This document shows positions 20,021 through 35,925 of a stretch of 64,000 bases of DNA, piece by piece. Positions within the stretch are counted from its first letter, which is position 1; each line of letters begins with the position of its first letter. The translations under genes were made by a program, and so were the position numbers. This stretch comes from Leisingera aquimarina DSM 24565 (lineage in GTDB: Bacteria; Pseudomonadota; Alphaproteobacteria; Rhodobacterales; Rhodobacteraceae), in contig NZ_AXBE01000012.1 in the NCBI RefSeq assembly GCF_000473165.1, positions 107,644 to 171,643 on the forward strand. The letters are read 5' to 3'. A model generated the notes under the pieces. The model did not search any database. It saw nothing but the letters and a program-made list of their open reading frames with translations, and was not told where the DNA came from.

Positions 20021-20695
20021 TTAACTACCAGCCTTTGCCTGGAAAGCCTCCGCATGGCTGGGAAACAGTGTCTGAAGGAAATTCAGTGTCTGCTCCAGCG
20101 CCCCTTCCCGAGTGTAGATGTGCGGAAACAAGTGCAGCTTCTGCCAGTATCCGTCGGTCAGCGAGTCAATCCAGCCGCCGGCCTTGTCGGCCTTGCCGGG
20201 GTCCTCCGGTATCAGTTCGTGGCAGATCTCGGCGAGCATTTGAGACCTCTTTTCCTCGAACTCACCGGTGATTTCGGCGTATTGAGGCACGAAATTCTGC
20301 TCCCCGAAGAAGGCAAACCAGATGGCGAGCGCGCTGGGGTTGCAGATCTTGGGGCTGAAGTCCGCCTCGATGATCGTGCGCAGGCGGGCCGCCGGGTCCT
20401 CGGGCGCTTTTTCCAGTGCCGCCTGCCAGTGAGCCTCGTAGGTCTGGTACTGATCGCGCAGCGCCTCGGTCAGAATGCCGGTCTTGGACTTGAAATAGAA
20501 GACGGCAACGCCCTGCGACAGCCCGGCTTCATTGGCCACGGTTGCCAGCGTCGTCTTGGCCAGGCCATTGGCCACGATCGATTTCAAGGTAGCATCGAGA
20601 ATCTGCCGCCGCCGCATGTCGGCGTTTTCCTTGCGTTCCTTGCGCGGCTTCCTGCCGCTGCCCTGCGATGCCACCATGAGAAATCCAGATTTCAA
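20021..20695 (-). CDS. TetR/BetI-family transcriptional regulator
   Basis: About 225 residues. The N-terminal HTH is ILDATLKSIVANGLAKTTLA ... EAGLSQGVAVFYFKSKTGIL, and the BetI-like C-terminal domain includes SALAIWFAFFGEQNFVPQYA. BetI relatives repress uptake or catabolism of choline-type compounds. TTG at 20695 has an excellent AAGGA eight bases upstream; ATG 20677 and GTG 20713 are alternatives. It is divergent from the PYROXD2-like operon, with the perfect palindrome TTTGAGCGCTCAAA between them. The same motif recurs in two other divergent promoter regions, so it probably autoregulates and controls the whole 20.8-35.9 kb block (inference). Confidence 0.85.
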   Translation of the reverse strand: MKSGFLMVASQGSGRKPRKERKENADMRRRQILDATLKSIVANGLAKTTLATVANEAGLSQGVAVFYFKSKTGILTEALRDQYQTYEAHWQAALEKAPEDPAARLRTIIEADFSPKICNPSALAIWFAFFGEQNFVPQYAEITGEFEEKRSQMLAEICHELIPEDPGKADKAGGWIDSLTDGYWQKLHLFPHIYTREGALEQTLNFLQTLFPSHAEAFQAKAGS

Positions 20696-20746
20696 TTTTC
20701 TTCCTTGTTCCACACTTCTTCGCGGCTGTCAGCCGGATTATTTTTA

Positions 20747-20760
20747 TTTGAGCGCTCAAA
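20747..20760. promoter_or_regulatory. Candidate TetR operator 1 (perfect palindrome)
   Basis: TTTGAGCGCTCAAA is a perfect 14-bp palindrome between the divergent TetR gene and the PYROXD2-like operon. The same core recurs at 28926-28945 and, with one mismatch, at 34314-34327. Confidence 0.7.
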
Positions 20761-20826
20761 AAAACTTTACCGGAAAATTCTTCTCCTCTAGGCTCCGGTG
20801 AACGACAGCCGGACCAGGAGAGATTC

Positions 20827-22464
20827 ATGGGGCAACACGACAGATTTGACGCCATTGTGGCCGGGGCCGGGCACAACGGGCTGACCGCGGCCTGCTACCT
20901 GGCCAAGGCCGGGCTGAAGGTTCTGGTGGTGGAAAAGAACGATTGGATCGGCGGCGCCGCGGTGAGCCGGTCCCTGCATGAGGGCTGGACCTATTCCAAT
21001 TGCTCTTACGTCTGCTCGCTGCTGCGACGTGAGATCGTGCGCGACCTGGAGCTGCCGAAATACGGGCTGCAGGTGATCCCCTATGAAGGCGGCGCCAGCT
21101 TTGACAGCGATGGCGACTACTTTGCCTATATGTCGGATCATGACGCCTTGCGCCGGGAAATCTCCCGCCATAGTGCCCGCGATGCCGATGCCTATGACCG
21201 GTTCAGCCAGACGGTGATCCGCCAGTGCCGTTTCATCCGGCCCTTCCTGCTGCGTAACGCGCCGGACCCGACCTCGCTGAAGCCGCGCGATATTGGCGAG
21301 CTGCTGTTCCTGATTAAGCAGGCGCATGGGCTGGGCAAGAAGGAGCTGGGCGAGACCCTGCGTTTCTGGTCGATGTCGATCGGCGATTTCCTGGATGAGC
21401 ATTTTGAGAATGACCTGATCAAGGCGCATATCGCCGGCGCGGGCATCATCGGCACCGGGCTGGGCGTCTACTCCCCCGGCACCGCCTATGTGCTTCTGCA
21501 CCACTACATGGGCGATGTGGACGGCGCGATCGGGGCCTGGGGCTTTGCCCGCGGCGGCATGGGCGCGATCTCCAACGCGCTGGGAGCCTGTTTCGAGGAG
21601 GCAGGCGGCACCATCGTCACCGGCTCCGGCGTCGACCGGTTTCTGGTCAGCAATGGCAGGGTGACCGGAGTGGCGCTGGCCAACGGCGACGAATACCACG
21701 CGCCCATCGTCGCCTCCAACATGGATGTGAAACGCACGTTCCTGCAGCATACCGGCGAGCAGTACCTGCCTGGCGATTTCGTAAAGGCGGTCAAACGGTT
21801 CAAGATCCGCGGCTCCTCGGGCAAGCTGAACATCGCGCTGGACGCGCTGCCGGAGTTCCCCGCCGCTCCCAAGGGCGCGCCTTTCCTGCGCGGCGATCTG
21901 CATTGCGCCGAAAGCCTGAACGAACTGGAGCGCGCATACGACGACTGGAAGGAGGGACGCTGGTCGCAGAACCCTTACTTCGACATGCTGATCCCCAGCC
22001 AGATCGATCCGACAATGGCACCGCCGGGCAAGCACATGATGACTGTCTTTGTGCAATACGCCCCATATGACCTGGAGGTCGGCGGCGTGCGCGCGGGCAC
22101 CAACTGGAACGGCCAGACACGCGGCGCTTTTGCCAATTGCGTCTTTGACAAGCTGGAGCAGGCCTGCCCCGACATCCGCAGCAAGACTGTGCATGCAGAA
22201 GTCCGCACCCCCTGGGACATCGAGCAGGAGGTGGGCCTGACCGAAGGCAACATCTTCCAAGGCGAACTGACCTTTGACCAGCTGCTCTTCAACCGCCCGG
22301 TGCCGGGCTACGCGCAATACGACACTCCCATCAACGGCATGTATATCGTCGGTTCCTCCGCCCATCCGGGTGGCGGGGTGATGGCGGCGCCGGGGGCAAA
22401 TGCCGCCCGCGAAATCCTGCGAAATATCGGCCGGGGCGGCAACATGACCGGCTACGCGGCCTGA
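20827..22464 (+). CDS. NAD(P)/FAD-dependent oxidoreductase, PYROXD2/phytoene desaturase-like (first copy)
   Basis: 545 residues of the CrtI/PYROXD2 amine-oxidase-fold family. The Rossmann motif is AIVAGAGHNGLTAACYLAKA followed by LVVEKNDWIGGAAVSRSL. The C-terminal FAD segment is MYIVGSSAHPGGGVMAAPGA. No carotenoid genes are nearby, so a role in amine or fatty-chain desaturation is more likely than carotenoid synthesis. AGGAGAGATTC precedes the ATG. It is first in a four-gene operon and has the palindrome operator upstream. Its partner copy starts 11 bp downstream; the two may form a heterodimer or act in sequence (inference). Confidence 0.8.
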   Translation: MGQHDRFDAIVAGAGHNGLTAACYLAKAGLKVLVVEKNDWIGGAAVSRSLHEGWTYSNCSYVCSLLRREIVRDLELPKYGLQVIPYEGGASFDSDGDYFAYMSDHDALRREISRHSARDADAYDRFSQTVIRQCRFIRPFLLRNAPDPTSLKPRDIGELLFLIKQAHGLGKKELGETLRFWSMSIGDFLDEHFENDLIKAHIAGAGIIGTGLGVYSPGTAYVLLHHYMGDVDGAIGAWGFARGGMGAISNALGACFEEAGGTIVTGSGVDRFLVSNGRVTGVALANGDEYHAPIVASNMDVKRTFLQHTGEQYLPGDFVKAVKRFKIRGSSGKLNIALDALPEFPAAPKGAPFLRGDLHCAESLNELERAYDDWKEGRWSQNPYFDMLIPSQIDPTMAPPGKHMMTVFVQYAPYDLEVGGVRAGTNWNGQTRGAFANCVFDKLEQACPDIRSKTVHAEVRTPWDIEQEVGLTEGNIFQGELTFDQLLFNRPVPGYAQYDTPINGMYIVGSSAHPGGGVMAAPGANAAREILRNIGRGGNMTGYAA

Positions 22465-22474
22465 GGAGCGGAAG

Positions 22475-24046
22475 ATGACCACACCAAACTACGACGCAAT
22501 TGTCATCGGCGCCGGCCACAACGGGCTTACCGCTGCTGCGACACTGGCCCGCAAGGGTAAATCCGTCTGCGTGATCGAGAAGAACGCAACCGCCGGAGGC
22601 ATGGCCCGCAACACCACGTTTGCAAATGGGATACAGGCGCCGGAGATCGCGCATCTGCTGTATAACCTGCACCCCAAGGTGAAGAAGGAACTGGGCCTTG
22701 GCTCCGTCCGCGCACCGCTGGAGGTGCGCGATCTGCCCGCGGTTTCGCTGTCGGAGGACGGCAACCACGCTGTGATCCGCAACGGCAAGGCAGAACTGGC
22801 TGATGGCCGCCCGCACCCCGAAACCGCGCCCTTTGGCGAACTGATGCGCCGCCTGACGCTGTTTGCCGGGCTGCTGGGGCAGCTTTCAACCAAATCCCCA
22901 CCCTCGCTTGAGGACGGCCTGGCCAGCCTGGACAAGCTCACGGAACTTGCCGGGCTTGCAAAGCTGGGGCTGGATCTGAAACGGATGGGCAAGAAGGACA
23001 TGCGCGAATTCCTCCGCGTGCTATTGTCCAACGCCTATGACCTGATCCTCGACGACCTCGAGGACGGTCCGCTGGCGGGCGCACTGGCAGCGGATGCGGT
23101 GCGCGGCGCCTTCGCCGGGCCGCGCTCGCCGGGGACAGTGTTCTCTCTGATGTACCGTCTGGGCCAAGGCGGCGGCGCGCAGCTGCCGTTGGGCGGCATG
23201 GGTGCGGTTGCAGCAGCATTCGAGACCGCGGCCCGCGCCGCCGGGGCGGAAATCCGCACCGGTACTGGCGTGGCCCGGGTGCTGACCGAAAACGACCGCG
23301 CGGCAGGTGTGGTGCTGGAGGACGGCACCGAAATCTCCGCCCGGGCAGTTCTGAGCAACACCGGACCGATGCCCGCGATGATACTGGCGGGGGCGGAGCA
23401 TTACGACGTGGAAGCGGTGCGGCGGATGCGCAACCAGCGCTGCAAGGGCACCGCGGCCAAGGTGAACCTGGTCCTGAACAGCGCGCCGAAGTTCAAGGGC
23501 CTCAGCCCGGAACTCACCGCAGGGCGGCTGCTGATCGCCTCCAGCGCCACTTATGTAGAGCGTGCCTTCAACCCCGCGAAGTACGGGGAAATGCCTGAAA
23601 ATCCGGTGATTGAGGCGGTTATTCCCAGCCTGTCCGAGCCAGGGCTGGCCAAAGACGCGCAGCATGTGCTTTCCGCTGTTGTCAGCTCCGTTCCCTACGC
23701 GTTGGAGGGCGGCTGGGATGAGGCCGCACGGGAAAGTCTGGCAGCCGTCACAATTGCCACGCTGGAAAAATACGCCCCCGGCATCGGCGCGCTGGTCTCG
23801 GACTGCCAAGTGCTCAGCCCCGCCTGTATCGAGGCACGCACGGGCGCGCCGGGGGGGCATTGGCACCATGCGGAGATGGGCATCGATCAGATCCTGACGG
23901 TGCGGCCCGCCAACGGCATGGCGCACTACCGGTTCGGGCCGGAGGGCTACTACCTCTGCGGCGCAGGTGCCCATCCGGGCGGCGACGTGACCGGGCTGGC
24001 CGGCCGCAACAGCGCTTTGCAGCTTCTAAAAGACGGGGTGATCTGA
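22475..24046 (+). CDS. NAD(P)/FAD-dependent oxidoreductase, PYROXD2-like (second copy)
   Basis: 523 residues, same family as the preceding gene. It has AIVIGAGHNGLTAAATLARK, VIEKNATAGGMARNTTF, and the C-terminal YYLCGAGAHPGGDVTGLAGR. It is strongly diverged from copy one, and its middle section (TKSPPSLEDGLASLDKLTEL) is shorter. The start has GAGGAGCGGAAG directly upstream. Its stop and the next start overlap as TGATG, indicating translational coupling to the GcvT-like gene. The reaction is unknown; the conserved context with an aminomethyltransferase and an aminotransferase argues for amine catabolism. Confidence 0.8.
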   Translation: MTTPNYDAIVIGAGHNGLTAAATLARKGKSVCVIEKNATAGGMARNTTFANGIQAPEIAHLLYNLHPKVKKELGLGSVRAPLEVRDLPAVSLSEDGNHAVIRNGKAELADGRPHPETAPFGELMRRLTLFAGLLGQLSTKSPPSLEDGLASLDKLTELAGLAKLGLDLKRMGKKDMREFLRVLLSNAYDLILDDLEDGPLAGALAADAVRGAFAGPRSPGTVFSLMYRLGQGGGAQLPLGGMGAVAAAFETAARAAGAEIRTGTGVARVLTENDRAAGVVLEDGTEISARAVLSNTGPMPAMILAGAEHYDVEAVRRMRNQRCKGTAAKVNLVLNSAPKFKGLSPELTAGRLLIASSATYVERAFNPAKYGEMPENPVIEAVIPSLSEPGLAKDAQHVLSAVVSSVPYALEGGWDEAARESLAAVTIATLEKYAPGIGALVSDCQVLSPACIEARTGAPGGHWHHAEMGIDQILTVRPANGMAHYRFGPEGYYLCGAGAHPGGDVTGLAGRNSALQLLKDGVI

Positions 24047-25224
24047 TGACCAAACATGTACCCATCGGGCTGATCGAAACCCCGTTCCAGCCACGGCTGG
24101 AGGCGCTTAGCACCGCCAAGAGCTGGACCAATTGGGCGGGCTATGTATCACCCGCGATGCTGGACACGGTGGAGTTCGAGTATTTCGCGATCCGCAACCA
24201 GTGCACCCTTTTCGACATCTCGCCGATGCACAAGTACCGCATCACCGGGCCGGATGCCTTGAAGGTGGTGAACCGGCTGGTGACCCGCGACGCGGCCAAG
24301 CTGCGCGACGGGCGGGTTGGCTATGTCCTGTGGTGCGACGAAGAGGGCATGGTGATCGACGACGGCACTCTGTTCCGCTTCTCGGAGACTGATTTCCGCC
24401 TGTGCTGCCAGGAGCCGATGTACACTTGGCTGCTGGACACTGCCTGGGGCTTTAACGCGGAGATCACAGACGAAAGCCAGGACATCGCGGCGCTGTCGCT
24501 GCAAGGCCCCACGTCGTTCTCGTTGTTGCAGGACGCGGGCCTGCAGGTTGTGGCGGAGATGAAACCCTTTGACTGGCGCGAAATAGAGCCGGATCTCTGG
24601 GTTTCGCGCACCGGGTTCACTGGCGATCTTGGCTATGAGCTGTGGGTTCCGAACGGCAAGGCGCTGGAGCTCTGGGACCGTTTGTGGGCCGCAGGCGGCC
24701 ATTGGGGCCTGAAAGCGATTGGATTTGAGGCGCTCAACATCTGCCGGATCGAGGCCGGGTTCATCGCCGCCGGCTTTGACTTCCAGCCAGTGCATACCGC
24801 CATGCGTCTTGGCCGCGGCCGGAGCCCGCTGGAGCTGGGTTTTGGCAAGATGGTGGATTTCACCAAGGGTCACTTCAATGGCCGCCGCGCTTTGCTGAAA
24901 CAGCAGGAAGCCGGTCTGCGTTACCACCTGCGCAAGATTGACATCGGCGGCTTCAAACCCGCGGATGGCGCGCTGATCTACCACAAGAAAAAGAAAGAGG
25001 TGGGGCATGTGACCTCCGGCGTCTGGTCGCCCACCACCAAGCGCAACATTGCGCTGGCCGAGTTCAAGGCGCCGTACGGCGAGAGCATCACCGATGACCT
25101 CTGGGCCGAAGTCTACGTTAATGAGGAAGGCCAATGGGACAGGCGGCTTGTGCCGGTCGCCATCGAAGAAAAGCCCTTCTTCATCAATAGCCGCGCGCGG
25201 GCGACCCCGCCGCGCCCGTTCTAA
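24046..25224 (+). CDS. Aminomethyltransferase (GcvT-like), stand-alone
   Basis: 392 residues. Features are DTVEFEYFAIRNQCTLFDIS, the folate-site region SRTGFTGDLGYELWVPNGKA, and a C-terminal VGHVTSGVWSPTTKRNIALA. By family it is a folate-dependent one-carbon transferase, like GcvT or DmdA. ATG 24046 overlaps the previous stop by one base; the frame is open further upstream but inside the preceding gene. No GcvH or GcvP is present, so it is not part of a glycine cleavage system. It probably takes a methyl or methylene group from the operon's substrate. Confidence 0.85.
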   Translation: MTKHVPIGLIETPFQPRLEALSTAKSWTNWAGYVSPAMLDTVEFEYFAIRNQCTLFDISPMHKYRITGPDALKVVNRLVTRDAAKLRDGRVGYVLWCDEEGMVIDDGTLFRFSETDFRLCCQEPMYTWLLDTAWGFNAEITDESQDIAALSLQGPTSFSLLQDAGLQVVAEMKPFDWREIEPDLWVSRTGFTGDLGYELWVPNGKALELWDRLWAAGGHWGLKAIGFEALNICRIEAGFIAAGFDFQPVHTAMRLGRGRSPLELGFGKMVDFTKGHFNGRRALLKQQEAGLRYHLRKIDIGGFKPADGALIYHKKKKEVGHVTSGVWSPTTKRNIALAEFKAPYGESITDDLWAEVYVNEEGQWDRRLVPVAIEEKPFFINSRARATPPRPF

Positions 25225-25242: not shown

Positions 25243-26622
25243 ATGACCAAGATGAAACCGAACACATTCGCAAACGAACCAAGCCCGGACACCCTGCATG
25301 AGTGGGATCGGACTCATCAGCTGCATCCTTGGATGGCAATGGACGACTGGCGCGGTTACGACAACATGCTGATGGAGACCGCCGATGGCATCCATCTGTG
25401 GGATGCTTCCGGCAAGCGCTATATCGACGGGCCGGGCGGCATGTGGTGCACCCAGATCGGCTATGGCCGCCAGGAGATGGCCGATGCCATCGCCGCACAG
25501 GTGATGAAGCTGCCCTATACCTCGCCCTTCACCAACACCACCGAGCCGTCGGCTGTGCTGGCGAAGAAGATCGCGGACATTGCCCCAGGGGATCTCAACA
25601 ACGTCTTCTTCACCACTGGCGGCTCCACCGCTGTGGATACCGCACTGCGCACCATGCAGTACATGAACAACCGCCGCGGCCAGCCGCAGAAGAAAAAGAT
25701 CATCGCCCGCGAGAAGGGCTATCACGGCTCCACCTATCTGGCCCATTCGGTGACCGGCAAGGAGCGCGACCAGAGCCAATTCGACTTCGAGACCCGGCTG
25801 GTGCATTTCTTGCCCGACGTGAACCCCTACCGCCGCCCCGAAGGCATGAGCGTCTCGGACTGGTGCGACGCCAAGGTCGCGGATCTGGAACACGCAATTG
25901 CAGAGATCGGCGCGGACAAGATCGGCGCCTTCATCGCCGAACCGATCCTGTCCTCCGGCGGCGTCATCGTGCCCGCGCCCGGCTACCACAAGCGGACTTG
26001 GGAGCTGTGCCGCGAGCATGACATCCTCTACATCTCCGACGAGGTGGTGACCGGCTTCGGCCGCCTCGGCCACTGGTTCGCGTCCGAGGAGGTTTTTGGC
26101 ATCCAGCCCGACATGATCACCTGCGCCAAGGGGCTGACCTCCGGCTATCTGCCGCTGGGCGCCTGCATCATCTCCGACCGGGTGATGCAGCAGATGAGCC
26201 ATCTGGGGACGCCCTCCTCCTACACCAACGGTTACACCTATTCGGGCCATCCGGTGTCCTGCGTCGCGGCGTTGAAGAACATCGAGATCATCGAGCGCGA
26301 GGGTATTCTGGAGCACGTCCGCGCCGTCACCCCGCATTTCCAGGCCCGCCTGCGCGACCTGATGAAATTTGATATCGTCGGCGACGCCCGCGGCGAGGGG
26401 CTGCTGGGCTGCATCGAATGCCAGGCAGAGGATCTGGGGGCCGAGCGCAGGATCGGTTCGATGATTGATGATGCCTGCGAGGAGATGGGCCTGATCGTGC
26501 GCCCGCTGATCAACATGGCTGTGTTCTCGCCGCCGCTGATCATCACCCTGGACCAGATCGACGAGATGTTCGACATCCTGGAGCGTGCCATCCAGCAGGT
26601 CGAGGCGCAGCTGGCAGCGTGA
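25243..26622 (+). CDS. Class III PLP aminotransferase (omega-aminotransferase-like)
   Basis: 459 residues. It has FFTTGGSTAVDTALRTMQYM, the PLP Asp in ILYISDEVVTGFGRLGHWF, and the Schiff-base Lys in MITCAKGLTSGYLPLGA. This layout matches beta-alanine/pyruvate, taurine/pyruvate and putrescine-type omega-aminotransferases. It lies 18 bp after the GcvT-like gene and is the last gene of the palindrome-linked operon. It probably deaminates the demethylated amine. The exact donor cannot be set from sequence. Confidence 0.85.
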   Translation: MTKMKPNTFANEPSPDTLHEWDRTHQLHPWMAMDDWRGYDNMLMETADGIHLWDASGKRYIDGPGGMWCTQIGYGRQEMADAIAAQVMKLPYTSPFTNTTEPSAVLAKKIADIAPGDLNNVFFTTGGSTAVDTALRTMQYMNNRRGQPQKKKIIAREKGYHGSTYLAHSVTGKERDQSQFDFETRLVHFLPDVNPYRRPEGMSVSDWCDAKVADLEHAIAEIGADKIGAFIAEPILSSGGVIVPAPGYHKRTWELCREHDILYISDEVVTGFGRLGHWFASEEVFGIQPDMITCAKGLTSGYLPLGACIISDRVMQQMSHLGTPSSYTNGYTYSGHPVSCVAALKNIEIIEREGILEHVRAVTPHFQARLRDLMKFDIVGDARGEGLLGCIECQAEDLGAERRIGSMIDDACEEMGLIVRPLINMAVFSPPLIITLDQIDEMFDILERAIQQVEAQLAA

Positions 26623-26847: not shown

Positions 26848-28887
26848 TTACACGGTATGCTCGCGCCGCCCGTATTTCTCGGCAATATCAATATTCTGGC
26901 CTAGGTCCATCGCCGCGCGGTAGCCGCTTTGCACGGCGGCGGCGATGAGATGCGGAGCTTCGGCATCGCCGATCCGGGCCACCGATTTGATGCCGGCCTC
27001 CTGCAGCCCGTCTCCCATCGCCTTCAGCCCGTCGTATAGCCTCAGAACCGGCAGGCGGCGAGTGAGGGGGATGATGGCGTCGCAGACAAAGATGCTGCGG
27101 GCGCCCGAGAATATGCAGGAAAGTACTGCTTCCCCCTTCTGTGCGGCCACCAGCATCCGATTGGGCACCACCGCGACGCCTGACTCGATCAAGGCGGCGT
27201 TCGACTGGTAGACCTCCGTGGTCCACTGTCCCCAATCGCAGGGGCGGCCTGCGGGTGTCACCAGGGTGACCCGGTGCCCCTCCTTGCGCAATTGCAGCGC
27301 CAGCACCGAGCCGAGGTAGTAGTGGTCGTCATCATAGATCACCACGTGATCCGCGTTAAGCGCTGCGCCGTTCAGCACGGTTTCTGCCGAAACGATCATG
27401 CCGGGCACTTCCTCCTCCAGCCCGGTGTCGGAATGTCGTCCGACGGTGTCCGTTGCCCAGACCGCCCCGGTGGCTGCAATCACATGGGAGACGTCCAAGT
27501 CCAGCACATCAGACGCCTCCAGCGGGCTTTCCGGATAGACCTCCACATTGGGCAGCTTTTCGATCTGCCCGACGCGCCAGTCGCGCACGCGGGCCCATTC
27601 GCTCATCCCCGGCAGGCGGGATTCGCGGGTGACACGCCCGCCCAGGGTCCGGCTGGCTTCTGCCAGCATCACCGAATGGCCGCGCTCGCCCAGCACCCGG
27701 GCCGCTTCCAGCCCGGCGGGGCCGGCGCCTACCACCAGCACCTTCTCAGGGGCTGTGCTGCGGCCAGTTTTCTCCGGATGCCAGCCCTGGCGCCATTCCT
27801 CGCCCATGGTCGGGTTCTGGGTGCAGCGCAGTGGCACCCCCAGAGAGTCGTGGGCGTAACAGATGTTGCAGCCGATGCATTCGCGGATGTCCTCGCTGCG
27901 CCCCTCTTCGATCTTCTTGGGCAGAAACGGATCGGCAATAGACGGCCGCGCCGCGCCGATAAGGTCCTGCCCGCCCTGGCGGATCACCTGCGCCATTGTG
28001 TCGGGCGAGGTGTAGCGGCCCACTGCCACCACCGGTTTCGAGGTCAGCGATTTCGCCTGCGCAATGCTGTCGGTGAATGAAGCTTCTTTCACAAACCGGC
28101 TCGCTCCCATCTCGACGCCGTAGTCGGGCACCACCAGATCCCAAAGGTCCGGCAGATCCGCCAGCATCGCAAAGGCGTCATAGCTTTCCGCATCCCCCAG
28201 TCCGACGCTGAAGCGGGTGGCGACGGCGCATTTGTGGCCGACCGCCTCTTTGGTTTCCTTGATCAGCTCGCGCACCAGCCGCACCCGGTTCTCCAAGGAG
28301 CCGCCGTATTCATCGCTGCGGGTGTTGTTTACCGGGTCAAGGAATTCCGACAGCAGGTAGCCGTGGGTGGCGTAGACGTAAACAACGTCGAACCCGGCCT
28401 CGACAGCCCGCAGCGCCGCATCGCGGTGCCATTTGCGGATGTTGCGGATGTCCTCGCGGTCGATCTTTCGCGCTTGGCCAGGATGCAGCACGGTGGCATC
28501 CGTCTGCGGCCGGTTGCGCAGGCCCAAGGGCGCCAGCCGGGTGCCGAAATTGGTCACCATGCCGCCGCCGATCCACAGCTCCACACCGGCCAGCGCGCCA
28601 TGCTCATGCACGGCGTCCGTCATCAGCCGGTTGGCGCGGATGTCATCCTGATCCCACAGCGCGGCATAGGGGTAATAGTCGTTGTCCGAGGTCGGGTGGA
28701 TTGAGCAGAACTCGGTGTTCACAACACCCCAGCCGCCTTCTGCCTTCATCCCGCGCATCGCCGCCACGGTCCGCGGCCGCCGCCAACCCATGCCCGCGCA
28801 GTGCGGCACCTGGTAGAACCGGTTTTTTGTCTCCACCGGGCCGATTTTCAGCGGCTGGCACAGGATGTCATGACGGGGATCGCGCAT
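26848..28887 (-). CDS. TMADH/DgcA-family flavin oxidoreductase with 4Fe-4S centre (first copy)
   Basis: 679 residues. An N-terminal old-yellow-enzyme FMN barrel (about 1-335; EYGGSLENRVRLVRELI) is followed by the 4Fe-4S cluster with Cys near 337, 340, 343 and 355 (CIGCNICYAHDSLGVPLRC), then a C-terminal dinucleotide domain (VLVVGAGPAGLEAARVLGER). The family includes trimethylamine and histamine dehydrogenases and the demethylases DgcA and StcD, which oxidise N-methyl amines to formaldehyde. ATG 28887 has AAAGG in front; an upstream TTG at 28893 is possible. It is divergent from the binding-protein gene across a 20-bp palindrome. Partner DgcB or ETF genes are not in the window. Confidence 0.87.
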   Translation of the reverse strand: MRDPRHDILCQPLKIGPVETKNRFYQVPHCAGMGWRRPRTVAAMRGMKAEGGWGVVNTEFCSIHPTSDNDYYPYAALWDQDDIRANRLMTDAVHEHGALAGVELWIGGGMVTNFGTRLAPLGLRNRPQTDATVLHPGQARKIDREDIRNIRKWHRDAALRAVEAGFDVVYVYATHGYLLSEFLDPVNNTRSDEYGGSLENRVRLVRELIKETKEAVGHKCAVATRFSVGLGDAESYDAFAMLADLPDLWDLVVPDYGVEMGASRFVKEASFTDSIAQAKSLTSKPVVAVGRYTSPDTMAQVIRQGGQDLIGAARPSIADPFLPKKIEEGRSEDIRECIGCNICYAHDSLGVPLRCTQNPTMGEEWRQGWHPEKTGRSTAPEKVLVVGAGPAGLEAARVLGERGHSVMLAEASRTLGGRVTRESRLPGMSEWARVRDWRVGQIEKLPNVEVYPESPLEASDVLDLDVSHVIAATGAVWATDTVGRHSDTGLEEEVPGMIVSAETVLNGAALNADHVVIYDDDHYYLGSVLALQLRKEGHRVTLVTPAGRPCDWGQWTTEVYQSNAALIESGVAVVPNRMLVAAQKGEAVLSCIFSGARSIFVCDAIIPLTRRLPVLRLYDGLKAMGDGLQEAGIKSVARIGDAEAPHLIAAAVQSGYRAAMDLGQNIDIAEKYGRREHTV

Positions 28888-29053: not shown

Positions 29054-30115
29054 ATGAAAATTTTGAAAACAGCCACGGCGCTTGGCATGGTCCTGTCCCT
29101 TCAGGCAGGCGCGATCCTGGCCGCCGATGCGGACCTGACCGTATTCGACTGGGCCGGCTATGAGGATCCTGAGTTCTTCTCTGCCTATATCGCAGAGCAC
29201 GGGGACGGTCCGACCTTTGCCTTTTTCGGGGATGAGGAAGAAGCCTTCCAGAAACTGCGTTCGGGGTTCCGCGCGGATGTTGTGCACCCCTGCTCGCAAT
29301 CGGTCCCGAAATGGATCGAGGCAGGGCTGCTGGCACCGCTCAACACCGCCCGGATCGAGCGTTGGGATGAGCTGGAGCCGAGTTTCCGCGACATCGAGGC
29401 CTACACCAAGGATGGTAAGAGCTACTTCATCCCGGCCGACTGGGGCAACACCGCGGTCACCTATCACACGGAACACCTGAGCGAAGCGGATGTGGCCAGC
29501 CTGCAGGCGTTTGCGGATCCCAAGCACCAGGGACGGATATCCATCGGCGACAATGTGGATGACGCTTACGCCCTGGGGTTCCTGGCAACTGGTGTCACAG
29601 ACTGGACCAACGCAACGGACGCGCAATTCCAGGCGGCCTCCGGCTTCCTGCGCAAGGTGCATCAGAATGTGCGCACCTACTGGTCCGACGGCGCCTCGCT
29701 GGCGCAGTTGATGCAAAGCGGCGAAGTTTATATGGCCTGGGCCTGGAACGAGACCTACTCAACGATGAGCTACGAAGGCCACCCGATCGCAATCAGGCGC
29801 GACACCGAAGAGGGCGCATCCAGCTGGGTTTGCGGCTATGCGAAACTCGCCAATGCGCCCGGCTCCGAAGACAAGTTCTATGACTTCATCAACGCCTGGC
29901 TGGAACCGAAAACCGCCAATTATCTCGTCAGCAGCTGGGGCTATGGCCACGGCAATGCCAAGGCGATGGCGAACATGAACGCCGGGGACTTGGCGGCAAT
30001 GGGGCTTGAAAGCAGCGAAAGCCTGCGCGCCAAGACCCTGTGGCAGGCACCCGTTCCTTCGGCGTTGCGCGAGAAGATGATCGCTGAGTTTGAACTGATC
30101 AAGGCCGGGTTCTGA
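29054..30115 (+). CDS. ABC transporter substrate-binding protein, PotD/PotF-like (first copy)
   Basis: 353 residues. The signal peptide is MKILKTATALGMVLSLQAGA, cleaved near ILAADA, and the mature chain starts DLTVFDWAGYEDPEFF. DVVHPCSQSVPKWIEAGLL and YFIPADWGNTAVTYHTEH follow the polyamine-binding-protein pattern. The start has AGGGAGACTTTC upstream. The matching ATPase and permeases are convergent, 100 bp away on the minus strand. It is related to the binding protein at 43824, with both reading VFDW-GYED near the N-terminus. The ligand is probably a cationic or zwitterionic amine (inference). Confidence 0.88.
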   Translation: MKILKTATALGMVLSLQAGAILAADADLTVFDWAGYEDPEFFSAYIAEHGDGPTFAFFGDEEEAFQKLRSGFRADVVHPCSQSVPKWIEAGLLAPLNTARIERWDELEPSFRDIEAYTKDGKSYFIPADWGNTAVTYHTEHLSEADVASLQAFADPKHQGRISIGDNVDDAYALGFLATGVTDWTNATDAQFQAASGFLRKVHQNVRTYWSDGASLAQLMQSGEVYMAWAWNETYSTMSYEGHPIAIRRDTEEGASSWVCGYAKLANAPGSEDKFYDFINAWLEPKTANYLVSSWGYGHGNAKAMANMNAGDLAAMGLESSESLRAKTLWQAPVPSALREKMIAEFELIKAGF

Positions 30116-30214: not shown

Positions 30215-31318
30215 CTATTGGAACAGCACGATGGAGTCCGCGCCCCACCCCACCGGCACCTCGCTGCCGGGCGGCACGATGGACCGGCCTGCGGTGTTGC
30301 GCATCGAGATGGTCACATCCTCGGCGTGGCCCGGCAGGCGCACGCTGTAGTAGGTCATGTCGCCATAGTAGGCGGTGCCCGTTACCTCGCCCCTGGCAAC
30401 GTGTTCGGTCTGCTCGCTGCCTTCGAACAGGATGGTCAGCATCTCCGGGCGGATGCCGATGGTCTCCAGGTTCCGCAAGTCCAGCCCTTCGGGGACCTGC
30501 GCCGACGACAGCTCGATGCTGCCAAGCGCCGGAATGTCGAGCGCCAGATGGCCGTTCATCCGGCCGGTGGCGCGGGCGTCGAGGAAGTTCATCACCCCGA
30601 TGAAGGATGCCACCCGCCGGTCTACAGGACGCCGGTATAGCTCCTCCGGCGAGGCCAGCTGGGCGATGCGGCCGTCGAACATCACCGCGATGCGGTCCGA
30701 CATGGTCAGCGCCTCCTCCTGGTCGTGGGTCACCAGGATGAAGGTGATGCCGAGCCGCTGCTGCAGCTGGCGCAGCTCCACCTGCATCTGGTCGCGCAGC
30801 TGCTTGTCGAGCGCCGACAGCGGCTCATCCAGCAGCACCACCTTGGGCTTCATCACCAGCGCCCGCGCCAGCGCCACCCGCTGGCGCTGACCGCCCGACA
30901 GCTCATGCGCAGCACGGGACCCCAGCCCGCCTAGATCCACCATCTGCAGCGCCTGTTCCACTTCGCGGGCGATCTCGGCCTTGGGCGTTTTGCGGGTCTT
31001 CAGGCCGTAGCCCACGTTCTCGGCCACGCAGAGGTGCGGGAAGATCGCATAGGACTGAAACACCATATTGGTGGGGCGCCGGTTGGCGGGGACGCCTGCC
31101 ATGTCCTCACCCGCGATCACGATGGTGCCGTCCGTCGGCGTCTCGAACCCGGCGATCATCCGCAGCAGGGTTGTCTTGCCGCAGCCCGAAGGCCCCAGCA
31201 GCGAGAAGAACTCGCTCTCGTGGATGGTTGCATTGATGCCTTTCAAAGCCTGGAAGCTTCCGAAGGTCTTGGTGACGCCCGCAAGGTCAATGATGGGCTT
31301 GGTAGATAGGCTGGCCAT
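30215..31318 (-). CDS. ABC transporter ATP-binding protein, PotA-like (first copy)
   Basis: About 367 residues. Walker A is LLGPSGCGKTTLLRM, the signature is HELSGGQRQRVALARAL, Walker B is VVLLDEPLSALDKQL, and the switch His is in FILVTHDQEEAL. A C-terminal TOBE domain follows (FIGVMNFLDARA onward), as in spermidine/putrescine importers. ATG 31318 has GGAGG eleven bases upstream; an in-frame TTG at 31327 lies too close to it. It is the last gene of the minus-strand Rieske-PotB-PotC-PotA run, placed so that uptake and first-step demethylation are co-expressed. Confidence 0.9.
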   Translation of the reverse strand: MASLSTKPIIDLAGVTKTFGSFQALKGINATIHESEFFSLLGPSGCGKTTLLRMIAGFETPTDGTIVIAGEDMAGVPANRRPTNMVFQSYAIFPHLCVAENVGYGLKTRKTPKAEIAREVEQALQMVDLGGLGSRAAHELSGGQRQRVALARALVMKPKVVLLDEPLSALDKQLRDQMQVELRQLQQRLGITFILVTHDQEEALTMSDRIAVMFDGRIAQLASPEELYRRPVDRRVASFIGVMNFLDARATGRMNGHLALDIPALGSIELSSAQVPEGLDLRNLETIGIRPEMLTILFEGSEQTEHVARGEVTGTAYYGDMTYYSVRLPGHAEDVTISMRNTAGRSIVPPGSEVPVGWGADSIVLFQ

Positions 31319-31319
31319 G

Positions 31320-32153
31320 TCAGGCAAATCCTCCGGTGGCTGAAGCTTCGATACCCTGTTTCCGCGCGGCGCGGCGGCGGAACCACTCGGCCAGGATCAA
31401 GAGCAGGACGGACAGGGCCAGCAGGATGGTCCCCAGCGCCATCACCGACGGCAGCTTTCCGGGGAAGCGCAGCTGGCTCCAGATGTAGACCGGCAGGGTG
31501 ACCTCCGTGCCGGTCAGGAAGAAGGCGATGATGAACTCATCCAGCGAGATGGTGAAGGTGATCAGCAGGCTGGACACCACGCCCGGCATGACCAGGGGCA
31601 GAACCACGCGGCGGAAGGTGCCCCAGCGGCTTTCGCCCAGGTCATAGGAGGCCTCCTCCAGGCTTTGATCCAGCCCCTGAAAGGCGGAGTTCAGGATGAC
31701 GATGGAGAACGGCGTGCAGATCAACACGTGGCCCAGAACCACGGTCGCCAGCGACAGCGGCATACCCAGCTGCATCAGCAGCACCAGCAAGGCTACCGCC
31801 ACGATGATTTCCGGCAGCACCAGCGGCAGCATGATGAAGCTCATGATGCCGCGTTTGGCGGGAAACCGGTAGCGCGCCGCAGCCCGCGCCGCGCAGGCGC
31901 CGAGAATGGTGCTCAGCACCGCCGACGACAGTCCAACGACCAGCGAATTCCGCACCGCGCCATGCAGGGATTCGGTCTGCCACAGCACGTCGAACCATTG
32001 GGTGGTGAAGCCGGTCAGCGGAAAGGAAATGATCGTGGCATCGTTGAAGGCAAACATCGGCAGCAGGATCACTGGCGCGTAGAGAAACACCATGTAGGCA
32101 ACGGCGTAGAGTGCCAGCCATTTGGCCGAAAGACCTTTTAAGGCGGATTTCAT
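31320..32153 (-). CDS. ABC transporter permease, PotC-like (first copy)
   Basis: 277 residues with about six membrane helices (MVFLYAPVILLPMFAFNDA at the N-terminus, TILLALSVLLLILAEWF at the C-terminus). The ATPase-docking EAA-type loop is EEASYDLGESRWGTFRRVVL. It starts in a 4-bp overlap with the PotB-like gene upstream, and its stop lies next to the PotA-like start. Inner-membrane half of the importer. Confidence 0.9.
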   Translation of the reverse strand: MKSALKGLSAKWLALYAVAYMVFLYAPVILLPMFAFNDATIISFPLTGFTTQWFDVLWQTESLHGAVRNSLVVGLSSAVLSTILGACAARAAARYRFPAKRGIMSFIMLPLVLPEIIVAVALLVLLMQLGMPLSLATVVLGHVLICTPFSIVILNSAFQGLDQSLEEASYDLGESRWGTFRRVVLPLVMPGVVSSLLITFTISLDEFIIAFFLTGTEVTLPVYIWSQLRFPGKLPSVMALGTILLALSVLLLILAEWFRRRAARKQGIEASATGGFA

Positions 32154-33007
32154 TGCACTTTGCCTCCAAACCGTTTGCCAAGAAGGAAAATCACTGCGCT
32201 GATGCTGGCTACGATCAGCATTGATGTGATTGCCAGCGCAGCCCCCAGCGGCGCGTTGTTTGCCTTGCCGAATTGAATCTGGATCATGTTGGCGATCATC
32301 AGCCCGTCGGTGCCGCCAACCAGTTTCGGGGTGATGAAATCGCCGATGGTCGGGATCAGCACGATCAGGGTGGAGGCGACCACACCGGGCATTGCCAAGG
32401 GCAGGGTGATCCGGAAGAACCGCCGCACCGGCCCGTCGCCCAGGTCTTCCGCCGCCTCCAGCAGCGAGCGGTCGATTTTCTCAAGCGCCACGAAAATCGG
32501 CAGGATCGCAAAGGGCGCCCAGGCGTGCGCCAGAGTCAGCACCACGGCGTTGGCATTGTAGAGCAGGAAGGTCAGTGGCTCGTCGATGATGCCCAATCCC
32601 GTGAATGCTGTGTTCAGCACACCGTTGTAGCCCAGGATGACTTTCCACAGGAACACCCGCAGCAGATAGCTGGTCCAAAAGGGCACGGTGATCAGGAACA
32701 GCCACAGCGCTTTGCGCTGCTTGACGTGAAAGGACAGGTAATAGGCGATCGGAAACGCCAGACCCACGGTCACCGCCGTGACGATCAGCGAGATATTCAG
32801 CGAGCGGAGCAGCAGCGCACGGTAGATTGGCTTGGTCCAGGCCTCGCGGTAGTTGTCCAGCGTGAGTGTGGTGTCGAGATCCAGATAGTTCTGGGTCCAG
32901 AAGCTGAACGTCAGCACCATCACCAGCGGTGCGGCCAGCATCAGCAGCGAATAGAGCAATGTCGGGCTGATCAATGCGAGGCCCTGGCGCCTCTCTCCGG
33001 TTAACAT
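32150..33007 (-). CDS. ABC transporter permease, PotB-like (first copy)
   Basis: 285 residues with six predicted helices (ALISPTLLYSLLMLAAPLVM near the N-terminus) and the docking loop LLEAAEDLGDGPVRRFFRIT. The frame is open upstream to 33169, but ATG 33007 is directly preceded by GGAGGAGCCAG and gives the usual N-terminus. It lies 58 bp after the Rieske gene and overlaps the PotC-like gene by 4 bp. Confidence 0.9.
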   Translation of the reverse strand: MLTGERRQGLALISPTLLYSLLMLAAPLVMVLTFSFWTQNYLDLDTTLTLDNYREAWTKPIYRALLLRSLNISLIVTAVTVGLAFPIAYYLSFHVKQRKALWLFLITVPFWTSYLLRVFLWKVILGYNGVLNTAFTGLGIIDEPLTFLLYNANAVVLTLAHAWAPFAILPIFVALEKIDRSLLEAAEDLGDGPVRRFFRITLPLAMPGVVASTLIVLIPTIGDFITPKLVGGTDGLMIANMIQIQFGKANNAPLGAALAITSMLIVASISAVIFLLGKRFGGKVQ

Positions 33008-33065: not shown

Positions 33066-34271
33066 TCATGTGCTGCCCTGCTGCGCGAGCAGTGCGGCGT
33101 TGCGGGCTTGCAGCTGCCCAGATTCCGGTTCGTCATGCTCCAGAACCGGAAACAGCTTGCGCAGCTCATCGTGGTAGCTGCGCACGCCGTGCTCCAAATC
33201 CGACAGGATCACGCCATCATAGCCGCTGGAGAAGGCCGCCTCCCAGCACCATTCGATCAGCTGCTCGTCCTCTTTTGAAGTGATCCGGTCGATCCGCCCG
33301 CTGAGGTAGCGCGCAGCGCGCAGCTGCCGGTCCTCGGAGGGCCGTTTGTAACAGGCGGCACGCTGGATGGTGCGGCCGTTTTCCACCGGAAACTCGTGGT
33401 AGAAGATCACCGAGTCCGGGTAGATGCCGAACACCAGGTTGGGGAAAAGCCCCAAATAGAGCCAGGCGGCTTGATGTTCGTCGTCGAGTGCCTCGGTGCG
33501 GGGCAGCAGCTTCTTGTAATTCTTCACACTCCACATCCGCCCGGAACCGGGGCGGAAAGCGCCGAACGACCGCGCAGCGCCATTGCTGAACGGCTGGTCT
33601 GCATAGTTGCTGCCGAACAGATCATGCAGGCCGGGATGCGCCAACGGCACATGGTAGCCTTCGTTGTCCACATCGCGGACGCATTTCCAGTTGGCGGCAA
33701 TTTCCGTGGAGCTGATTCCGCTCCCGTCCGGCAGCAGCTCTGCCAGGCCGTAAGGCGCCAGCTCTTCTTCGAACTGCGCCATCACCTCGGAAACGGCGGG
33801 CTGCGGTCCCGGCTTGAAACGGACAAAGACAAAACCGTGCCAGATGTCCATCTCAACCGGTTTCAGGCCCCATTCCACCGGATCCAGATCCGGCAGGGTC
33901 TCGGGCCGTGCTGCCCCGCGCAGGGTGCCATCCAGATTGAAGGCCCAGCCGTGGAACGGGCAGATGATAGCGTTCTTGCAATGGCCCTTGTCCTCAGCCA
34001 CGACACGGCTGCCGCGATGGCGACAAAGGTTGTGAAAGGCGCGCACTTCGCCATCCGCCCCACGGACCACCAAGGCCCGCTCGCCAGTGAAATCCGCGGC
34101 CATGAAATCGCCGGGCTCCGGCACATCATTGACGTGGCAGACAAGCTGCCAATGACGGCGGAATAATAGCTCCTTTTCTTCTTCCAGAAGTTCCGGATTG
34201 GTATAGCTCCACGCAGGCAATCCAGTACGGCCGGCTCTCGGATCAGATTTAAACAGCACGTCGTCCTTCAT
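33066..34271 (-). CDS. Rieske-type oxygenase alpha subunit, GbcA/Stc2-like (first copy)
   Basis: 401 residues. The Rieske 2Fe-2S ligands are C83-x-H85 and C104-x2-H107 (CRHRG ... CPFHGW). The mononuclear iron site lies in RDVDNEGYHVPLAHPGL, with His near 207 and 212. Relatives GbcA and Stc2 remove a methyl group from glycine betaine or stachydrine by monooxygenation. The ATG at 34271 has AAGGAGACCCAC upstream; the longer frame to 34307 is not needed. It heads the run with the ABC genes and is divergent from the MttB-like gene. A dedicated reductase is not found nearby. Confidence 0.88.
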   Translation of the reverse strand: MKDDVLFKSDPRAGRTGLPAWSYTNPELLEEEKELLFRRHWQLVCHVNDVPEPGDFMAADFTGERALVVRGADGEVRAFHNLCRHRGSRVVAEDKGHCKNAIICPFHGWAFNLDGTLRGAARPETLPDLDPVEWGLKPVEMDIWHGFVFVRFKPGPQPAVSEVMAQFEEELAPYGLAELLPDGSGISSTEIAANWKCVRDVDNEGYHVPLAHPGLHDLFGSNYADQPFSNGAARSFGAFRPGSGRMWSVKNYKKLLPRTEALDDEHQAAWLYLGLFPNLVFGIYPDSVIFYHEFPVENGRTIQRAACYKRPSEDRQLRAARYLSGRIDRITSKEDEQLIEWCWEAAFSSGYDGVILSDLEHGVRSYHDELRKLFPVLEHDEPESGQLQARNAALLAQQGST

Positions 34272-34313
34272 GTGGGTCTCCTTCCCTCTGACCGGAATCC
34301 GTAGCATTTTTTA

Positions 34314-34327
34314 TTTAAGCGCTCAAA
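34314..34327. promoter_or_regulatory. Candidate TetR operator 3 (one mismatch)
   Basis: TTTAAGCGCTCAAA differs from the TTTGAGCGCTCAAA core by one base. It lies 43 bp upstream of the Rieske start, between the divergent Rieske and MttB-like genes. Confidence 0.6.
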
Positions 34328-34387
34328 CAAAAAATTTTTGCCGGGATTTGCATTCGTGGCTGGACAAAGCAGGAATCCGGCCTCAAA

Positions 34388-34405
34388 TTTGAGCGGTCAC
34401 TCAAA
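34388..34405. promoter_or_regulatory. Half-sites TTTGAG/CTCAAA with wider spacing
   Basis: TTTGAG-CGGTCA-CTCAAA carries the same half-sites as the other palindromes but with 6 bp rather than 2 bp between them. It ends 17 bp before the MttB-like start, so it could be a second, weaker operator. It could also be a coincidence. Confidence 0.4.
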
Positions 34406-34422
34406 CGTCGAGGGGAGAAGCA

Positions 34423-35925
34423 ATGCGCCGCGCGAGAAGCCGCAGAAGACCCGCCGCCTCCGTTGCAGCACCTGTCAGCAAGGGCCCGCACTCGCTGGCC
34501 ACGCCTGCCTACGCGCCGCTTACGCAGGCGCAGGTGGACCGGGTCGTGGACACGGCGATTGAGTTGCTGGCTACCTCCGGCGTGGTATTCGAACCTGGCG
34601 GCGAAGCGGACACCCTGCTGCGCGGTGCCGGCTGCACGCTGTCGGATGAGGGCATCGTAACGATCCCGGAAACCGTCACCCGCAGGGCGCTGGAAACCGC
34701 CGCCCGCTCCGCCACGCTATGGGACCGCAACGGCGAAAACCCCATTTCAATTGACTGCGATCACACCTGGTTCATGCCCGGCATGACCTGCATCGCGGTC
34801 TATGACGAGGAAACCGGCGAGCCGCGCCCCTCGACCCGCGAGGACCTGGCCCTGATCACCCGGGTTGCCGACAAGCTGCCGCATGTCGACGGCGTTTGCA
34901 TTGCAGTGAAGAACGTCGAAGAGTCGAACCAGTTCGGCGAGATCGACGAATTCGCCTGCCTTATGGAAAACACCACCAAGCCGCTGGAATACCTTTGCGA
35001 ACACCCTTCCTCGCTGGATGCGGTGATCGAGATGGCGGCCGCGCTGCGCGGAACGCACCAGGCGCTCCGGCAGAAGCCTTATTTCCTGCATCTGATCACA
35101 CCGCTGCCGGTAAACCTTGCGCGGATCCATTCGGACCAGATCATTACCGCCGCCAGGGTGGGCATCCCTGTGAGTGTCGGCACCCTGCCGATTGGCGGTG
35201 CGTCGTCGCCCATCACCCTGGCCGGCTGCATCACCCACGCGCTGATGACGGACTTTGCTGCAGTCGTCCTTGGACAGCTGGCTGCCGAGGGCAGTTTCTG
35301 CGTGGGCAGCTCTGACGTGAATTTCATGGAGCCGGTCACCGGCGCCATCGGCAGTTTCTCCCAGACATCAGTCGGCGACATGGCGATGTGCCAGGCGCGC
35401 CGCTCGCTGGGGTTTCCGTCGCTGACAGGGATCGGCGGCTGTTCCGTTGCCCGCCGTTTCAACCAGGATGCAGTCTGGGAAATCTCATCGAACATGACCC
35501 AGATGTTCTACAACCGCCCGGCCACGATCGATTACATGGGTTCGCTCGATCAGGGGCTCACTTATTCGCTGCACGCCCTGCTGTTGTGCAACGACCTTGC
35601 GGGGTTGCTGCGCAAGATGTGGCAGGGCCTGGAAATCTCGGCCGATCAGATGGCCATCGACCTGATCCGCGAGGTTGGCCCCAACGGTAATTTCCTCGCC
35701 CATCAGCACACGGTCGACAACTGCCGGACCCAGGTCTGGAATTCCCGCTACTTCGGCCCGAACATCCCGCTGAGCAACGCCGGGCTTGCGGATCAGGACC
35801 TGCTGAAGCGCATTGACAATGACCTCAAGGAGATGCTGGCAGTGCTGGAGCAGCCGGAACTGCCGCCGGAAACCAAGGCAGCTGTTTCCGCGATTTTAAA
35901 CAAGTACAGTGATCACGCGGTCTAA
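34423..35925 (+). CDS. MttB-family (trimethylamine methyltransferase-like) protein, non-pyrrolysine (second copy)
   Basis: 500 residues across the MttB superfamily (VDTAIELLATSGVVFEPGG, DHTWFMPGMTCIAVYDEETG, HLITPLPVNLARIHSDQI, SSPITLAGCITHALMTDFAA). No in-frame UAG is present, so it is pyrrolysine-free. The N-terminus is rich in arginine (MRRARSRRRPAASVA). GAGGGGAGAAGC lies directly before the ATG. It is only distantly similar to the copy at 7069. It stands alone on the plus strand, divergent from the Rieske gene across palindrome sites. As with the first copy, no corrinoid partner or reactivator gene is seen. Confidence 0.83.
   Translation: MRRARSRRRPAASVAAPVSKGPHSLATPAYAPLTQAQVDRVVDTAIELLATSGVVFEPGGEADTLLRGAGCTLSDEGIVTIPETVTRRALETAARSATLWDRNGENPISIDCDHTWFMPGMTCIAVYDEETGEPRPSTREDLALITRVADKLPHVDGVCIAVKNVEESNQFGEIDEFACLMENTTKPLEYLCEHPSSLDAVIEMAAALRGTHQALRQKPYFLHLITPLPVNLARIHSDQIITAARVGIPVSVGTLPIGGASSPITLAGCITHALMTDFAAVVLGQLAAEGSFCVGSSDVNFMEPVTGAIGSFSQTSVGDMAMCQARRSLGFPSLTGIGGCSVARRFNQDAVWEISSNMTQMFYNRPATIDYMGSLDQGLTYSLHALLLCNDLAGLLRKMWQGLEISADQMAIDLIREVGPNGNFLAHQHTVDNCRTQVWNSRYFGPNIPLSNAGLADQDLLKRIDNDLKEMLAVLEQPELPPETKAAVSAILNKYSDHAV

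Follow-up and report, generated by a model that had tools for sequence, protein, structure and literature searches.

The window analysed here is a stretch of 64,000 nucleotides from Leisingera aquimarina DSM 24565 (positions 107,644 to 171,643 of the 242,809-base contig NZ_AXBE01000012.1). Between positions 20021 and 35925 it harbours 12 genes, which encode two adjoining flavin adenine dinucleotide (FAD) proteins of the CrtO/CrtI type (P1 and P2), a stand-alone GcvT-like protein (G), a TetR/BetI-type regulator, a class III aminotransferase, a flavoprotein of the trimethylamine dehydrogenase (TMADH) type, a PotABCD-type importer, a Rieske oxygenase and an MttB-family protein (Table 1). The original prediction, made from the sequence alone, had listed these families side by side, and they were borne out by Pfam and NCBIfam profile searches of ten of the proteins and, for the two permeases, by annotated orthologues in Parasedimentitalea marina. 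The shorter starts given in the table for the TetR, PotB-like and Rieske proteins, in place of over-long raw open reading frames (ORFs), were judged by eye.

The genes for P1, P2, G and the aminotransferase run in the same direction with gaps of about 20 bases or less, P2 and G touching each other, and the genes for the ATPase, both permeases and the Rieske protein run in the opposite one, overlapping or with a short gap between them. The two opposed gene runs thus leave three divergent gaps, namely TetR/P1, TMADH-like/solute-binding protein and Rieske/MttB. The regulator scored below the models of the BetI choline repressor (TIGR03384, 104.8 bits against a cut-off of 201; PRK00767, 104.9 against 118), and the ATPase exceeded TIGR01187 (363.8 against 355.6) and remained below the PotA equivalog NF006987 (372.8 against 482).

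Table 1. Genes and predicted operators of the cluster (window positions).
Feature	Position	Strand	Basis and remarks
TetR/BetI-type repressor (predicted)	20021..20713	-	TetR_N and TetR_C_6 above cut-off; BetI models below; likely start near 20677
Operator O1, TTTGAGCGCTCAAA (predicted)	20747..20760		Exact match; gap TetR/P1
P1, CrtO/CrtI-type FAD protein	20827..22464	+	Pfam/NCBIfam, best NCBIfam CrtO, far below cut-off; model likeness
P2, second FAD protein	22475..24046	+	Best NCBIfam CrtO, far below cut-off; about 30% identical to P1
G, GcvT-like folate-binding aminomethyltransferase, stand-alone	24046..25224	+	GCV_T and GCV_T_C domains
Class III omega-aminotransferase	25243..26622	+	NF005447 above cut-off
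TMADH/histamine-dehydrogenase-type Oxidored_FMN flavoprotein	26848..28893	-	VPHC and 4Fe-4S cysteine motif
Operator O2, TTTGAGCGCTCAAA (predicted)	28929..28942		Exact match; gap TMADH-like/solute-binding protein
PotD-like solute-binding protein	29054..30115	+	Family searches, alignment, structure model
PotA-like ABC ATPase	30215..31327	-	TIGR01187 above cut-off
PotC-like permease	31320..32153	-	P. marina orthologue annotated as ABC permease
PotB-like permease	32150..33007	-	P. marina orthologue annotated as ABC permease; ORF opens to 33169, likely start 33007
Rieske oxygenase, DVDNEGYHV active-site motif	33066..34307	-	Family searches, alignment; likely start 34271
Operator O3, TTTAAGCGCTCAAA (predicted)	34314..34327		One mismatch to TTTGAGCGCTCAAA; gap Rieske/MttB
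Operator variant O4, TTTGAG-N6-CTCAAA (predicted)	34388..34405		Longer spacer; just before MttB
MttB-family methyltransferase	34423..35925	+	PF06253; frame without internal stop

A palindrome inherited with the cluster

The palindrome TTTGAGCGCTCAAA is present in each of the three divergent gaps, twice exactly and once with a single mismatch, and the half-sites of the spaced variant before the MttB gene are conserved in 7 of 7 aligned copies, its inner bases being variable. When up to 3 mismatches were allowed, the window contained 6 matches against 2.2 expected, a number reached in none of 100 shuffles. The whole 5.3 Mb genome contained only 4 sites with one mismatch or less, 3 of them at the cluster, and a reversed control pattern gave none. 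The genome counts, the reversed pattern and the co-occurrence with the cluster described below rule out a chance palindrome. A wider regulon was also discarded, since the fourth genomic site (C1:3256623) lies amid ORFs of unrelated look, as judged without a family search.

Inheritance of the palindrome was followed in 21 genomes of the genus with a site pattern that misses some O2-type sites. A full P1 (at least 95%) was found in 7 of these genomes, exactly the same 7 that carry an MttB orthologue at 87% or more. They hold 15 sites, all 15 at the cluster and at least 2 in each genome, and the other 14 genomes hold 3 sites in all, 2 of them at decayed remnants of the cluster; the presence of two or more sites is associated with that of the cluster at a Fisher p of 8.6e-6, a value to be read with the fact that the genomes are not independent. 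In the two remnants (L129 6720-10005 of genome G018 and L130 6458-9056 of genome G007) the operator stands beside a TetR gene 91-93% identical, which is followed by a short remainder of P1, fragments from the GcvT gene's end and an intact aminotransferase gene, and the ends of the deletions differ. The remaining orphan site, an exact one in the cluster-free genome G011, was set aside, as it falls within an ORF, with none of the cluster's genes matched in its 15 kb. One operator and one gene set are inherited and lost together.

With a relaxed pattern, all 18 of 18 sites were found in the three divergent gaps of six complete clusters (five same-genus copies and P. marina), the third site of P. 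marina preceding a Rieske gene without MttB. Sites upstream of P1 were tallied in 85 of the 86 loci L042-L127. Where the adjacent TetR was at least 45% identical, 28 of 35 loci had a relaxed site within about 300 bases; none of the 18 loci whose TetR was more divergent had one, and neither did any of the 32 lacking an adjacent TetR. Regulator and operator change together, as expected of a TetR-operator pair. Among 15 upstream regions of Rhizobiaceae-type loci, only two recurring motifs were found, each in 2 regions, and no common operator; applied to 34 positive controls, the same motif method regained the known site in 24-26 of them. The palindrome is, by its sequence context, the predicted operator of the adjacent TetR, co-conserved with it, and binding by the regulator and release by an inducer are predicted.

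The original prediction had noted copies of one palindrome at the promoters and had named, as a check, the joint conservation of gene set and palindrome in other roseobacters. The observation held, with the palindrome in all three gaps and its variant before MttB. The check also came out in favour, and the refuting case of a neighbourhood confined to this strain did not apply: the set recurs in the genus, in P. marina, in Fuscovulum and in Rhizobiaceae, and within the genus and among its relatives the operator goes along with it. The co-conserved genes and operator likewise support the proposal of a single regulated set, plausibly serving an N-methylated amine.

Contiguity of P1, P2 and the GcvT-like gene

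When bacterial genomes were scanned with an alignment of P1, at least 568 relatives emerged; the analysis used the best 80 of these, a choice that favours close kin, and 51 of the 80 loci were longer than 18 kb. It should be considered that the presence counts are tblastn matches and not proven orthologues, that the 10 kb flanks lose genes located further out, and that the ORF clusters, which keep the longest ORF per place, lose some genes to antisense ORFs. P1, P2 and G adjoined one another in all 73 P1 copies that had room for them (in 72 of 74 when split pieces are counted as copies), and in 72 of the 86 loci. All 51 long loci matched P1, P2 and GcvT, 48 an aminotransferase, 47 a TetR and 37-40 importer parts, and the TMADH-like and the Rieske proteins were each matched in 24 and MttB in 4 (3 at a stricter limit); at least one further demethylation-type enzyme was matched in 44. 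MttB was matched in none of the six plasmid loci L042-L047, and at 60% or more in 3 of the 86 loci, a count that represents a lower bound because MttB lies about 14 kb from P1 in the window, beyond many of the stored flanks.

A separate draw of 299 Pseudomonadota genomes, in which only the top candidates were scored, gave P1 matches of at least 55% in 7 genomes, including that of L. aquimarina itself, with P2 and G adjoining in 7 of 7. Another 27 genomes had P1 matches of 34-42% only, and an adjacent G match at E 1e-40 was found in 0 of these 27. The trio thus forms a unit and stands apart from the lone flavoproteins of its superfamily.

In plasmid records of Shinella zoogloeoides, Rhizobium sp. 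SL42, Fuscovulum ytuae and P. marina the set lies close together in varying order, annotated as TetR, two NAD(P)/FAD oxidoreductases, aminomethyltransferase, aminotransferase, Rieske protein and ATP-binding cassette (ABC) importer, the aminotransferase, binding protein and permeases of Fuscovulum being only distantly related to those of the window. The region is unannotated in the records of Ensifer and Shinella PSBB067, where tblastn matched the same genes. As judged from these sequence matches, the shared core is the pair of CrtO/PYROXD2-type flavoproteins plus GcvT; transaminase, importer and regulator are usual, and the Rieske, TMADH-like and MttB genes are variable.

Novelty had originally been attributed to the flavoprotein pair and the MttB-like gene. 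The pair, with GcvT, is indeed unusual and invariant, but MttB alone is not distinctive, because MttB-family proteins are known from growth of Ruegeria pomeroyi on glycine betaine (reported in parts of PMC12478193) and because MttB lies outside the shared core. The novelty rests in the flavoprotein pair with GcvT. No description of this unit was found in full-text searches of the open-access literature. Three loci from gammaproteobacterial bins (L105, L109 and L115) contain two P1-P2 pairs within 22 kb. An example of an S-adenosylmethionine (SAM)-dependent methyltransferase located in one of the loci (L061 15476-16261) scored below all NCBIfam cut-offs shown.

Likely roles, proposed route and alternatives

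The AlphaFold model of P1 (mean predicted local distance difference test score 83.6) most closely resembled carotenoid desaturases and, after them, amine oxidases such as nicotine oxidoreductase, monoamine oxidase and putrescine oxidase; the structures modelled for P1 and for the binding protein indicate families only, not substrates. The closest solved relative of G was the C-terminal folate part of trimethylamine N-oxide (TMAO) demethylase, followed by T-protein and then by dimethylglycine oxidase and sarcosine oxidase, and these relatives make one-carbon capture on folate a natural guess. The folate domains of TMAO demethylase, dimethylglycine oxidase and sarcosine oxidase belong to the same family as G and probably serve, like it, to catch the methyl carbon, but there the domain is embedded in a chain of 793-965 residues, whereas the GcvT-like protein of the window has its own gene next to those of two flavoproteins of the CrtO type. 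Sequences and model suggest that P1, P2 and G may constitute an N-demethylase in which the flavoproteins work with a folate partner made as a protein of its own. The label PYROXD2-like for P1 and P2 presumes a family resemblance to this orphan human flavoprotein. The human PYROXD2 locus explains about half of the plasma N6-methyllysine variance in one cohort, and is linked to N6-methyllysine, dimethyl- and trimethyllysine, N-methylpipecolate and N-acetyl-isoputreanine (parts of PMC8109053; for N-methylpipecolate also of PMC5780481).

The Rieske protein contains CRH...CPFH and DVDNEGYHVPLAH, and its bridging glutamate aligns with CntA E205; the motifs and the Rieske domain are those of group V (CntA, Stc2, GbcA). 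It differs from that group in having an Asp in place of CntA Tyr203, which departs from the aromatic residue of group Va, in the replacement by Gly and Val of the CxxC pair near the iron, found in some group V members only, and in the absence of an adjoining reductase gene (roles of these residues as given in parts of PMC10952381 and PMC7948474). The DVDNEGYHV type was found in the window and its 12 closest copies (six of the same genus and L042-L047); in the wider Rieske ORF cluster, the CntA-203 place was Asp in 11 of 20, Asn in 3 and Tyr in 1, with 5 giving no motif match. The second Rieske types present in some loci (17 of 17 proteins), as well as the Rieske protein of another set in the window described below, have the CntA-like Tyr, Glu and CxxC. 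An acidic residue at this place might suit a protonated amine over a quaternary one. The description of the protein as a GbcA-like Rieske enzyme was right as to the oxygenase, but the GbcA label is loose: it scored 133.6 bits with the GbcA model NF058607 (cut-off 670), and among proteins of solved structure carnitine monooxygenase is its closest relative.

The TMADH-like flavoprotein shares with the TMADH/histamine dehydrogenase family both the VPHC flavin site (at residue 29, with the Cys of 6-S-cysteinyl flavin mononucleotide) and the CIGCNIC...C 4Fe-4S motif, which are found together in 19 of 22 proteins of its ORF cluster. TMADH Trp355 is an Asp here, as in histamine dehydrogenase, according to the alignment. 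The MttB-family protein scored 186 bits with PF06253 (cut-off 25), its solved relatives being MttB and a glycine betaine methyltransferase. A pyrrolysine MttB was ruled out by the TIGR02369 score (211.6 bits against 525) and by a 510-codon frame without internal stop, that is, with no in-frame TAG. The genome encodes a single B12-binding_2 protein (a 247-codon open frame with DIHDIGKN), a fair candidate for MtgC. According to parts of Mausz et al. 2025 (PMC12478193), MttB-family (pfam06253) proteins of R. pomeroyi rise with MtgC and MtgD on glycine betaine, MtgC serves both methionine synthesis and glycine betaine demethylation, and the Discussion suggests further MttB-like proteins for other methylated compounds. 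The MtgBCD system resembles the cluster in having an MttB-family protein in an aerobic roseobacter, one that the lone B12-binding_2 protein could serve here; it differs in that those parts of the account include no flavoprotein pair with GcvT, whereas in the window MttB shares an operator region with the Rieske gene. A broken second MttB copy, 72-85% identical, lies on contig C1 of the same genome (L040 12428-13078).

As clues to the substrate, the binding protein was aligned with PotD, whose polyamine contacts we take to be the acidic E36, D168, E171 and D257 and the aromatic W34, Y37, W229, W255 and Y293. All the aromatics are kept, but E36, D168 and D257 correspond to G35, N167 and C260, and only E171 stays acidic, as D170; G35, C260 and D170 are invariant in 22 sequences. 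A ligand with a single cationic head would fit this pattern better than a polyamine. The presence of a class III transaminase suggests that the fully demethylated product is probably a primary amine, with the amino group as a rule remote from the carboxylate. Eight loci, mostly from Ruegeria, encode a flavoprotein whose nearest model is L-pipecolate oxidase, below the cut-off in the one representative searched. The binding-protein residues, the transaminase, the presumed kinship with PYROXD2 and the pipecolate-oxidase-like ORFs favour, if undecidedly, omega-N-methylated amino acids, methyl-lysine included.

We think it probable that the cluster is a regulon under TetR repression whose products take up an N-methylated amine or betaine and demethylate it step by step, a folate-coupled flavoprotein unit dealing with a remaining methyl before the product is transaminated. 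As read from the sequences, repression, catalytic roles, order of steps and class of substrate would be as follows. The TetR-type repressor would close the three divergent promoter regions through TTTGAGCGCTCAAA until the compound or a product of it enters the cell, and the PotD-like protein and PotABC-like transporter would take it up. The first methyls would be removed by the Rieske oxygenase, the TMADH-like flavoprotein and, in this genus, the MttB-family protein, which would pass a methyl to the shared corrinoid protein. P1, P2 and the GcvT-like protein, acting as a split folate-coupled N-demethylase, would oxidise the remaining N-methyl and deliver its carbon to tetrahydrofolate, and the class III aminotransferase would remove the primary amine thus exposed. 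One candidate for the substrate is a methylated omega-amino acid, for instance methyl-lysine. A more specific version is possible though doubtful: the trio might be an undescribed split N-demethylase of this kind spread across Proteobacteria and the bacterial counterpart of PYROXD2, with the regulon degrading an amino acid methylated on its omega nitrogen through oxygen- and cobalamin-dependent front ends under one operator; the likeliest such compound would be N6-methylated lysine (trimethyllysine, 'laminine', of algal or protein origin). Methylated nitrogen compounds are important food and energy for marine bacteria, and many of the enzymes degrading them are unknown; a trio found intact in every copy with room for it, and accompanied by import, transamination and interchangeable demethylases, hints at an N-demethylation machine of general use. 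If the presumed kinship is true, a tractable bacterium would offer a direct way to the reaction of the orphan human enzyme, and the well-defined operator eases the screening of inducers.

Several observations weigh against this reading. No other demethylation enzyme was matched inside the stored flanks of 7 of the 51 long loci, and a SAM methyltransferase, matched in 32 of them, has no place in the scheme. Two genomes of the genus have lost P1-P2-G and yet retain TetR and aminotransferase at 91-94%, which suggests that the transaminase may be useful, and worth retaining, by itself. In the Rieske protein both the Cys pair and the aromatic residue of CntA are missing, and no ferredoxin-reductase partner for it was found in the cluster, the nearest of the genome's 7 FAD_binding_6 proteins lying 18 kb before the window. 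The upstream site is missing in 7 of the 35 loci with a close adjacent TetR. As for the substrate, omega-N-methylated amino acids are disfavoured by glutamine-synthetase-like ORFs in the neighbourhood of the trio in six loci (L069, L104 and L105 by search; L055, L060 and L109 by ORF cluster), three of which (L069, L105 and L109) also have ORFs of an AmaA/PuuB-like cluster, a content that would suit amines or polyamines.

This last content, with a PuuC-like-cluster ORF in L069, brings in a methylated polyamine route, in which N-methylated compounds of the putrescine or spermidine type (for example from diatom silica) would be imported, demethylated or cut by the flavoproteins and passed to a polyamine:pyruvate-type transaminase. 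The importer and binding protein of the Pot family agree with it, as do, among many other likenesses, those of the aminotransferase to putrescine and polyamine transaminases and of the P1 model to putrescine oxidase; given that three of the four presumed acidic PotD contacts are changed and that a single cationic head would fit better, we consider this route quite unlikely. Breakdown of a known betaine (glycine betaine, stachydrine, carnitine or gamma-butyrobetaine), the cluster being an isofunctional substitute for GbcAB/DgcAB/Sox, Stc or Cnt, is also unlikely, though gamma-butyrobetaine may yet be the substrate. The class III aminotransferase would be superfluous for the established glycine betaine and stachydrine pathways, the Rieske active site is unlike those of CntA and Stc2, and the scores lie below the equivalog cut-offs for BetI, GbcA and pyrrolysine MttB alike; in its favour, the TetR is of the BetI type, and the Rieske, TMADH-like and MttB families have members that demethylate amines or betaines (parts of PMC12478193 and PMC7948474). 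That the cluster is the recently reported gene set for homarine catabolism, to which the many loci from marine bacteria and a 2026 paper on a conserved homarine pathway (cited in the part of PMC13390433 consulted) would lend some colour, seems very improbable: Mgd (presumably N-methylglutamate dehydrogenase) takes part in that pathway (same source), and ring-opening, hydrolase and aldehyde dehydrogenase families were found in 0 of the 10 window proteins searched.

Other gene sets of the window

A second, paralogous set (cluster B) occupies window positions 40475-48559 and encodes a Rieske protein with the CntA-like Tyr, Glu and CxxC, a TMADH-like protein, a PotD/A/C/B-like importer and a BetI-type TetR, with no flavoprotein pair. 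Its identity to the first set is 37% for the Rieske protein (over 190 residues), 48% for the TMADH-like protein, 43% for the binding protein and 26% for TetR. Its inclusion in the same regulon was rejected, as no spacer-2 palindrome within one half-site mismatch was found at 40.5-48.6 kb and the TetR proteins are so little alike; one palindrome match with 3 mismatches lies near it, at 40457. The idea that the importer and TMADH-like protein of Roseovarius-type loci are of the cluster B kind was dropped, these being about equally distant from both sets. Genes for IS110-type transposases are located between the first and second sets (36767-38398) and after the second (49114-49959).

A third set reminiscent of methylated-amine metabolism, at 6073-17862, comprises a LysR regulator, an MttB-family protein, a class III aminotransferase, a thiamine pyrophosphate enzyme, an FAD_binding_2 protein and two FAD-GcvT fusions of the dimethylglycine-dehydrogenase type. 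At 768-4259, the gene for a DUF1989-GcvT fusion protein diverges from that for a LacI-type regulator. Positions 52100-62469 hold, in a row, beta-CASP RNase-like, pyrimidine-phosphorylase-like, phosphoribosyl-pyrophosphate-synthetase-like, heavy-metal P-type ATPase, phosphoketolase and Na+/H+ antiporter genes.

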